DNA of 64,000 nucleotides from Natrinema halophilum (lineage in GTDB: Archaea; Halobacteriota; Halobacteria; Halobacteriales; Natrialbaceae). Position 1 is the first letter of the stretch. Every line of letters starts with the position of its first letter. Location of the stretch: assembly GCF_013402815.2 (NCBI RefSeq), contig NZ_CP058601.1:2356001-2420000 (forward strand), given 5' to 3'. A program made the position numbers and the translations under genes. This document shows positions 55,830 to 61,649 of this stretch, in pieces. The notes beneath the pieces were generated by a model that ran no database searches, was not told where the DNA came from, and saw only the letters and a list, made by a program, of their open reading frames with translations.

Positions 55830-55885
55830 TCGGTCCCGGATTCGAATCAAGCAGTCATCTGACCTATCTTTTTCAAGGAGAGAAT

Positions 55886-56002: not shown

Positions 56003-57331
56003 ATGGCGATTCAGGTCACTCACACCTATGTTGCTACCATTCGCAACCAGCAACAGGTGCAGAGTGATCTGGACTCGCTTGGGTTTGCCGCCGCAAAGCT
56101 CTGGAACATCGCACGCTGGACGTGTGACCGCATCTGGGGTGAAACAGGGACAATCCCTGAGGATGGCCCACTCAAGGCATATCTGAAGAATCACGAACGC
56201 TATGCCGACCGTAATTCTCAGTCGAGTCAGCGAGTCATAGAAGAACTCGCTGAAGCGTTCAGTGGTTGGTATGCTAAACGCCGAAACGGGGACGACCGCG
56301 CAAACCCACCGAAGTATCGGAAGAACGGCGACGATCACCCACGATCGACAGTTACGTTCAAAGAAGACGGGTTCAAACACGACGCAAAGAATAATCGGAT
56401 TCGACTCTCTAAAGGTCGAAATCTGAAAGAACACTGGTCAGACTTCATCCTCTGTGAGATTGAAACCCGACCAGACGTGACGATCGAGAACGTTGGCCAA
56501 GTGAAAGCAGTCTGGAACGATTCTAAAGGCGAATGGGAACTTCACATCGTGTGCAAACACGAAATCGAGGCCGAATCTCCCGGCGACGAAACTGCTGGCA
56601 TTGACCTCGGTATCTCAAACTTCGCCGCCGTCTCGTATTCTACGGGCGACCACGAGTTGTATCCGGGGAACGCTCTCAAGACCGACGAACGGTACTTCGC
56701 TAAGGAGATTGCGAAGTGCAACTCATCTCGCTCGAACAATGCCTTGAGACTCCGCAAGAAGCGTTCTAAGCGTCGGTCACACTACTTACACGCCGTCACG
56801 AAACACATCGTTGCAGAGTGTGTTGAACGAGGTGTTGGGACAATTGCTGTCGGCAACCTCGAAGGCATCCGCGAAGACGACGAGACTGGTGAGGCTCGGA
56901 ACTGGGGCGACCGTGGCAACGAAGGCTTGCACGGATGGGCGTTCGACCGCTTCACGAACTTACTCACATACAAGGCGAAAGCCGAAGGTATCACTGTGGT
57001 CATAGTGAGCGAGCGAGACACGTCGAAGACGTGTTCGCGTTGTGGGCAGAAACGAGACGCCAACCGTGTTGAGCGAGGCTTATACGTCTGTCGTGAGTGT
57101 GAGGCCGTGATGAACGCCGATTCGAATGGTGCGGAGAACATTCGGTGTCGGTTAGACCAAGCAGAAAAGGTAACTCTGAATCCTCGATCTACAGAGGATA
57201 GGAGTAGCGGGCGTGTGGCACGTCCAGTAGTCAACCTGTTCCGTCGTGGAGAATACGACCATAGTCGTGGACAGGGGACGTTCGCTGAACAAGCGAGCAG
57301 CTGCAAACCACAAATATCCCAACTGCGGTAG
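56003..57331 (+). CDS. tnpB: TnpB, RNA-guided endonuclease of an IS200/IS605-type element
   Basis: A 442-residue TnpB. The split RuvC-like nuclease has all three acidic residues: D201 (GIDLGISN), E287 (GNLEG) and D373 (NADSNGAENI). A zinc ribbon C344/C347/C363/C366 (CSRCGQK...CRECE) lies between the second and third. TnpB proteins use a guide RNA made from the element's right end to cut DNA. The scaffold is visible after the stop codon as a stem with two hairpins. Codon use is less GC-rich than in neighbouring genes. With the catalytic residues intact the protein should be active, but this has not been tested. Confidence 0.93.
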   Translation: MAIQVTHTYVATIRNQQQVQSDLDSLGFAAAKLWNIARWTCDRIWGETGTIPEDGPLKAYLKNHERYADRNSQSSQRVIEELAEAFSGWYAKRRNGDDRANPPKYRKNGDDHPRSTVTFKEDGFKHDAKNNRIRLSKGRNLKEHWSDFILCEIETRPDVTIENVGQVKAVWNDSKGEWELHIVCKHEIEAESPGDETAGIDLGISNFAAVSYSTGDHELYPGNALKTDERYFAKEIAKCNSSRSNNALRLRKKRSKRRSHYLHAVTKHIVAECVERGVGTIAVGNLEGIREDDETGEARNWGDRGNEGLHGWAFDRFTNLLTYKAKAEGITVVIVSERDTSKTCSRCGQKRDANRVERGLYVCRECEAVMNADSNGAENIRCRLDQAEKVTLNPRSTEDRSSGRVARPVVNLFRRGEYDHSRGQGTFAEQASSCKPQISQLR

Positions 57332-57416
57332 GGAAGCCTCGCCGTCGTCGGGCTCTGCCCGACTGCCTGAGGGATCTTCGATCCCTCTCCGTTCACGGCG
57401 AGGAGGATGTCACACC
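57332..57416 (+). ncRNA. Right-end RNA of the TnpB element (guide-RNA scaffold)
   Basis: Just after the tnpB stop a nine-base stem (CCTCGCCGT, 57337-57345, with ACGGCGAGG, 57395-57403) encloses two hairpins. GTCGGGC (57347-57353) pairs with GCCCGAC (57357-57363), and GAGGGATC (57369-57376) pairs with GATCCCTC (57380-57387). TnpB guide RNAs end with a scaffold in the element's right end, followed by the guide copied from flanking DNA. The guide would start just after 57413. The same fold recurs in the solo copy at 61.2 kb with different loops and one compensatory change. Confidence 0.75.
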
Positions 57417-61025: not shown

Positions 61026-61149
61026 GCGGCTGTCGAATCGTCGCTATACGGGGACCCTGAACGGCCAGAAAAACAGAATCATACCCTGAGAACGGACCGC
61101 TGAAACGAGTGCGACGGCAAAACGTAAGCGAAATGGAGCGGTCAGTGTG

Positions 61150-61232
61150 ACATCCTCCCCGCCGTAAACGGAGAGGGACCGTCGGTCCCTCAGGCAGTCG
61201 GGCGTCGCCCGACGACGACGGGGCTTCCCACC
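61150..61232 (-). ncRNA. Solo right-end RNA scaffold, related to the TnpB guide RNA
   Basis: Read on the minus strand, a closing stem (CCCCGTCGT, 61223-61215, with ACGGCGGGG, 61165-61157, one G-U pair) contains GTCGGGC/GCCCGAC and GAGGGACC/GGTCCCTC hairpins. Compared with the copy at 57337-57403 the first hairpin stem is the same with a different loop (gac against tct). The second stem changes a T-A pair to C-G and has another loop. The pattern supports the fold as an RNA selected for structure. Confidence 0.65.
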
Positions 61233-61327
61233 GCACCGCACGCGGTTGATTTGGGAACCTCGGGTTCGTACACCGACGATATACTGGGAGTGCCACGCCC
61301 CCGTTATCCCTATCCCACACGGGATTC

Positions 61328-61386
61328 GGGAGTATCTTGCTTGTTTTCCGTCGGTATCCGACTCGTTCTCTTGGCAGGATACTCCC
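61328..61386. repeat. Inverted repeat inside the solo element
   Basis: gggagtatcttg (61328-61339) is matched on the other strand by the complement at 61375-61386 (caggatactccc), with one mismatch. The arms are 12 bases and the loop 35 bases. Nothing similar was found in the interior of the TnpB-bearing copy. Confidence 0.7.
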
Positions 61387-61649
61387 AATGAATGCGGACG
61401 GAATCCCGATATTGTCCGATTGTCCCGACATGGGGGCGGATGTACCGCCTCGTGGCGTACCTTTCGTTCCAATTCGATAAAAATTTAATGAGAGTACTCG
61501 ATTCACGCCCGTCCCCAGAACGCTATGCGTTCTGGTGTGCGAACGAGACGCTTCGCGTCACGTCAACGCCGTAACCGGCGGGATTCTCTCGCTGTTTAAA
61601 GATAGAACTCGAGTCCGCATCCACGCTCGAGCAAGCACCTGCGCTCGAG

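Follow-up and report, generated by a model that had tools for sequence, protein, structure and literature searches.

A TnpB-less IS200/IS605 element of Natrinema halophilum with a complete, covarying omegaRNA scaffold

Results

The window analysed here, a stretch of 64,000 nt from the genome of Natrinema halophilum (contig NZ_CP058601.1), carries a tnpB element (L001) and, on its minus strand, a TnpB-less element of 459 nt (L007, 61147-61605) in which TAM, left end and right end are all present (Table 1). Minus-strand positions 61147-61231 match plus-strand positions 57329-57413, which form the right end of L001 (hereafter the 57.4-kb copy). A reading made from the sequence alone had recognised a TnpB-less copy at 61144-61610, which is borne out by the lack of TnpB similarity upstream. 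That reading took it for a solo right end, and this view does not hold, since CTATCTT is followed downstream by AGAGAATCCCG (61579-61589, minus strand), the same start as in the tnpB element at 55879. By its sequence organisation, L007 is a complete non-autonomous IS200/IS605 element belonging to the PATE class of haloarchaea.

PATEs (palindrome-associated transposable elements) were described in Haloquadratum walsbyi and treated as repeats mobilised in trans (PMC3119063). L007, which is too short for a transposase gene and has no TnpB, resembles them in lacking both such a gene and terminal inverted repeats, in its near-terminal palindromes of the IS605 type, in a terminal oligonucleotide that serves as target sequence, and in having further small repeats lodged within the palindromes. 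It differs from the published description by a complete covarying omegaRNA scaffold. Its two ends match those of tnpB elements in the same genome, and near-identical copies lie at unrelated sites: L006, L007 and L015 share 96-97.5% identity within unrelated flanks and an identical left boundary, the right end of L006 stops at the same base as that of L007, and that of L015 is truncated. For L003 and L012, two other copies of the family, a TAM-like oligonucleotide (TAYCTT or CACCT) is present at the site in relatives that lack the element; the element-free site that matches L007 in one relative (G053) has diverged in sequence. The left-end hairpin of L007 holds an inserted two-hairpin cassette (hairpins at 61547-61559 and 61515-61535, minus strand). 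No Rfam family matched above its gathering score anywhere in the window, and the predicted guide ACTGACCGCTCCATTT has no other match in the genome at up to two mismatches, with matches at chance level at three.

Table 1. Features of the TnpB-less element and of its candidate partner (positions in the window)
Feature	Position	Strand	Remark
TAM / target-derived terminal oligonucleotide CTATCTT	61599-61605	-	Common to copies with unrelated flanks
Left end AGAGAATCCCGCCG...GGGCGTGAATC	61500-61590	-	Left-end frame shared with the tnpB element at 55879
Non-coding interior	61363-61499	-	Common to L006 and L015, partly to L034
omegaRNA helices A0 and A, TCCC GAA TCCC GTGT GGGA TA GGGA	61307-61331	-	Covariation among TnpB-less copies
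omegaRNA hairpin B, GGGGGCG TGG CACTCCC	61286-61302	-	Loop GTGGCA (61291-61296) is the pseudoknot 5' strand
omegaRNA hairpin D, GTATA...TGTAC (L006: GTACA...TGTAC)	61268-61284	-	5/5 pairs with compensatory changes
Helix C, TTCCC (61253-61257) with GGGAA (61225-61229)	61225-61257	-	95.5% of cells paired, nearly invariant
Right-end hairpin, closing stem 61215-61223 with 61157-61165	61157-61223	-	Covariation
Inner hairpins H1 (61197-61213) and H2 (61173-61191), cassette in right-end hairpin loop	61173-61213	-	Structure covaries
Terminal hexamer TGTCAC, pseudoknot 3' strand, last bases of the scaffold	61147-61152	-	Changes in step with the hairpin B loop from element to element
Predicted 16-nt guide ACTGACCGCTCCATTT, flanking DNA	61131-61146	-	Adjoins the right end
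TnpB (442 aa) of L001, candidate trans partner	56003-57331	+	Left end at 55879, right end 57329-57413
Hairpin B of L001, GGGCGTG TGG CACGTCC	57209-57225	+	Lies in the tnpB coding sequence; its pairing partner is TGTCAC 57408-57413

Sixteen strong right-end copies are found in the genome. Four of them (L001-L004) have tnpB, and the reading frame of L004 is broken, leaving three autonomous members with an open tnpB. Upstream of L005-L009, L011 and L013, TnpB similarity was looked for and none was found, and L010, L012 and L016 are preceded by tnpB fragments only. The TnpB of L001 has the Pfam domains OrfB_IS605 and Cas12f1-like_TNB and aligns with solved TnpB/Cas12f-type nucleases (PDB) across the conserved C-terminal motifs. 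Only one TnpA (Y1 transposase) domain was detected genome-wide (G000:C1:3443176-3443484), and it contains an in-frame TAG. As a side observation, the TnpBs of L001 and L002 are 54% identical and their right ends 96%, which suggests that right ends are exchanged between TnpB lineages or strongly constrained. Besides, in the element of ~100 nt at L011 (G000:C1:1417006-1417090), among the smallest derivatives seen, the left-end sequence passes straight into the right-end hairpin.

The scaffold of L007 has the right-end hairpin close to its 3' end. Its 5' part shares homology with the tnpB 3' end, and conserved structure continues for ~100 nt before the right end begins. The sequence-only reading had invoked selection on RNA structure and proposed to look for covariation in a larger alignment; such covariation was found, and the signal is stronger than that reading saw, the whole scaffold and the pseudoknot being kept and covarying in TnpB-less copies. 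Column shuffles and slid structures served as controls, and hairpin B was tested on curated alignments. In a set of 46 right ends drawn from many haloarchaea, pairing holds in 95.6% of cells against a shuffled mean of 91.1, with 50 double-change cells (shuffled 14.1) and a covariation score of 0.134 versus 0.046. Among 17 TnpB-less copies, 93.8% of cells are paired versus 86.7 after shuffling, with 16 double-change pairs versus 8.7, and the covariation score is 0.238 versus 0.109 (slid controls at most 0.076). For the 5' part of the scaffold alone, the same set gives 88.2 versus 76.1 paired and a score of 0.417 versus 0.206. As the sequences are related, none of these shuffle counts is to be read as a probability. 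When no structure was given, RNAalifold recovered A0, A, B, D, the closing stem, H1 and H2 from the mixed alignment, with 17 compensated pairs, and predicted the loop-to-right-end pairing from the TnpB-less set alone. The energy of single-sequence folding is weak, with z values of -1.88 for one strand and -1.62 for the other, and it is covariation that carries the argument; a large alignment of a single lineage was too conserved and added little of it. The RNA fold of the TnpB-less scaffold is strongly supported, and selection on it is supported.

The pseudoknot joins the loop of hairpin B to the six bases that close the element, as it does in L007, and forms 6/6 pairs in nearly all copies. 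Its versions covary (GUGGCA/UGUCAC, GUGGCC/GGUCAC, AUGGCA/UGUCAU and UUGGCA/UGUCAA), and a further one is GUGACA/UGUCAC. The GUGGCC/GGUCAC version was seen in TnpB-less copies only, across many genomes: a search for GGTCAC ends in 125 family genomes returned ~48 right-end-like elements, of which none had an intact tnpB upstream and one a partial fragment. The pseudoknot is damaged in L133, L192 and L150. In a published virus-borne PATE (L229:602-1089, Halorubrum tailed virus DL1), inspection by eye indicates that GTGACA could pair with the TGTCAC end.

Compared with the 57.4-kb copy, the inner stems of L007 stay paired while their loops differ, just as the sequence-only reading had described: the H1 stem GTCGGGC/GCCCGAC is the same in both (loop TCT versus GAC), and H2 has the loop TTC versus GAC, with one pair that is T-A in one and C-G in the other. 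Pairing of the closing stem through a G-U had also been rightly noted (C-G versus U-G), but a second compensatory pair (T-A versus C-G) was missed. The two inner hairpins had in addition been emphasised. An essential scaffold role for the double hairpin was dropped, since in otherwise homologous elements (L246, L262 and L268 among others) the flanking scaffold is the same but the right-end hairpin is plain and has no cassette. Sequence comparison thus assigns the closing hairpin, the upstream stems and the pseudoknot to the conserved core scaffold, and the inner hairpins to a dispensable cassette of ~46 nt.

The same cassette also occupies the right end where an element's TnpB is less than 30% identical to the close relatives, and is tandemly duplicated in L061. 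It resembles the SMR insertions in near-terminal palindromes (PMC3119063), SMR-A being small inserts in such palindromes of PATEs and IS605 elements; this likeness is one of description, and SMR-A differ in being ~110 bp long with terminal inverted repeats, whereas the cassettes here are double hairpins of ~46-56 nt, that of the right end having ~46 nt and two hairpins. Other double-hairpin cassettes were seen in hairpin B (L130, L149, L150, L117, L251, L285 and L287), in the left end (L119, L143 and window 61512-61565) and in the right end (L124, L132 and L135). These differing cassettes may make up a group of small inserts that target palindromes.

Within a PATE family, homology spans the entire element, including the same TnpB-less interior, so that differences within a family arose without tnpB. 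Against a null with the same kinds of substitutions placed at random in the stems, pairing was kept in excess in 10 of 15 within-family comparisons (P<0.03), which are not independent because they overlap; L005/L008 and L147/L160 displayed no excess of preserved pairing over this null. Between L006 and L007, six substitutions fall in stems and none in loops, and 5/5 changed pairs are kept. The scaffold (A0, A, B, D, C, right-end hairpin and pseudoknot) is therefore maintained by compensatory changes in TnpB-less copies, some of which occurred after the loss of tnpB. In a full-length alignment of one lineage with the GGTCAC end, conservation is 0.88-0.96 over the final ~230 columns, where the omegaRNA lies, and 0.70-0.82 over the interior. 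In the same lineage, TATTTAA or TATATAA stands at a fixed place ~70 nt inside the left end in 23/29 elements examined, much as in the tnpB element L001; the family of L007 itself is without the clear TATA box of this larger lineage. A close TnpB (best E <1e-200) is present in 10 of the 15 genomes with such PATEs versus 32 of 110 others (Fisher P 0.007), a co-occurrence that could come from shared acquisition. Only clearly more distant TnpBs (best hits ~54-58% among the matches listed) are found in the remaining 5/15.

Discussion

The hairpin loop/3'-end pseudoknot is known from the omegaRNAs of ISDra2 (PMC10097598) and Halobacterium salinarum (PMC12558985). The scaffold reported here shares with these omegaRNAs (or reRNAs) its location at the 3' end, a right-end hairpin near the 3' end, the pseudoknot and a guide, here a predicted one, in flanking DNA. 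It differs by the absence of tnpB from the element, by extra helices and by the double hairpin that some elements carry in the right-end loop. PATE transcripts have already been reported (PMC10544981), and no description of complete covarying omegaRNA scaffolds in TnpB-less elements was found in the open-access papers. PATEs and omegaRNAs being both known, the complete covarying scaffold without tnpB appears to be the new part within the open-access literature.

We consider it fairly probable that PATEs make omegaRNAs which the resident TnpB would use in trans against element-free alleles; use in trans had already been raised by the sequence-only reading and would fit the data. L007 combines the TAM and both ends with a short non-coding interior and a complete omegaRNA scaffold, and its RNA would be transcribed toward the right end; one PATE lineage has a conserved TATA box. 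As scaffold and pseudoknot match, the TnpB of an autonomous copy may bind the PATE RNA, with ~16 nt of flanking DNA acting as the guide. Its cutting of the element-free allele beside the TAM would lead recombination to favour retention of the element, and mobility of the PATE would need TnpA in trans. In one case of the published PATE transcriptome, most reads are antisense to an ORF starting in the right end (PMC10544981); they would be antisense to the omegaRNA as well, which counts against this proposal, as do the in-frame TAG in the one TnpA found, the lack of the clear TATA box in the family of L007 and the five PATE genomes with only more distant TnpBs.

The hairpins could instead be kept for mobility at the DNA level, with no role as RNA, since TnpA recognises single-stranded hairpins at both ends. 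Both ends are indeed conserved, the copies are mobile, and G-T pairs on one DNA strand mimic G-U pairs. However, the covarying helices and the 5' strand of the pseudoknot lie ~120-185 nt from the element end, a reach exceeding what IS200/IS605 TnpA is known to need, going by IS608. Moreover, the covarying stretch is the tnpB 3' end in autonomous copies, and the pseudoknot matches the published omegaRNA type. Taken with the within-family pairing, the GGTCAC-end search, the conservation within the lineage and the TATA box, which argue against a DNA-only as well as a relic origin of the signal, these points make this alternative unlikely.

We also give little credence to a decoy or regulatory function, in which the PATE omegaRNA would titrate TnpB or guide it to a regulatory target, with no retention by cutting. 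The scaffold evidence fits this option equally, and an inverse expression of omegaRNAs and tnpB in H. salinarum is cited in PMC12558985. Yet the guide of L007 has no second target in the genome, and PATEs occur at many sites, so guides vary per copy as expected from targeting of the element's own site. Least probable is a relic origin, in which the compensatory changes date from parents with tnpB and became fixed in place when tnpB was deleted, the PATEs now decaying: several PATE families derive from tnpB-like elements and three pseudoknots are damaged, but pairing-preserving changes occurred inside families with a common TnpB-less interior, one pseudoknot version was found only in TnpB-less copies, across many genomes, and the omegaRNA of one PATE lineage is more conserved than its interior.

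Returning to omegaRNAs supplied by PATEs, we would advance with more hesitation, as a possibility somewhat short of an even chance, that whole TnpB-less lineages persist as guide-RNA-only parasites. They would have their own promoter and an omegaRNA that co-evolves, along with its pseudoknot, so as to remain usable by TnpBs encoded elsewhere in the genome, and the trans-acting nuclease would hold their sites.

TnpB, from which Cas12 descends, is usually viewed as a partner of the guide RNA encoded by the same element. Should guides come in trans from non-autonomous elements, many short elements would be exploiting TnpB as a common resource. Such an arrangement would resemble CRISPR, where nuclease and guide are separate, and would explain why PATEs keep sequence beyond the needs of transposition. 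Finally, reading this sequence as a scaffold yields simple pairs of PATE guide and TnpB that can be tested.
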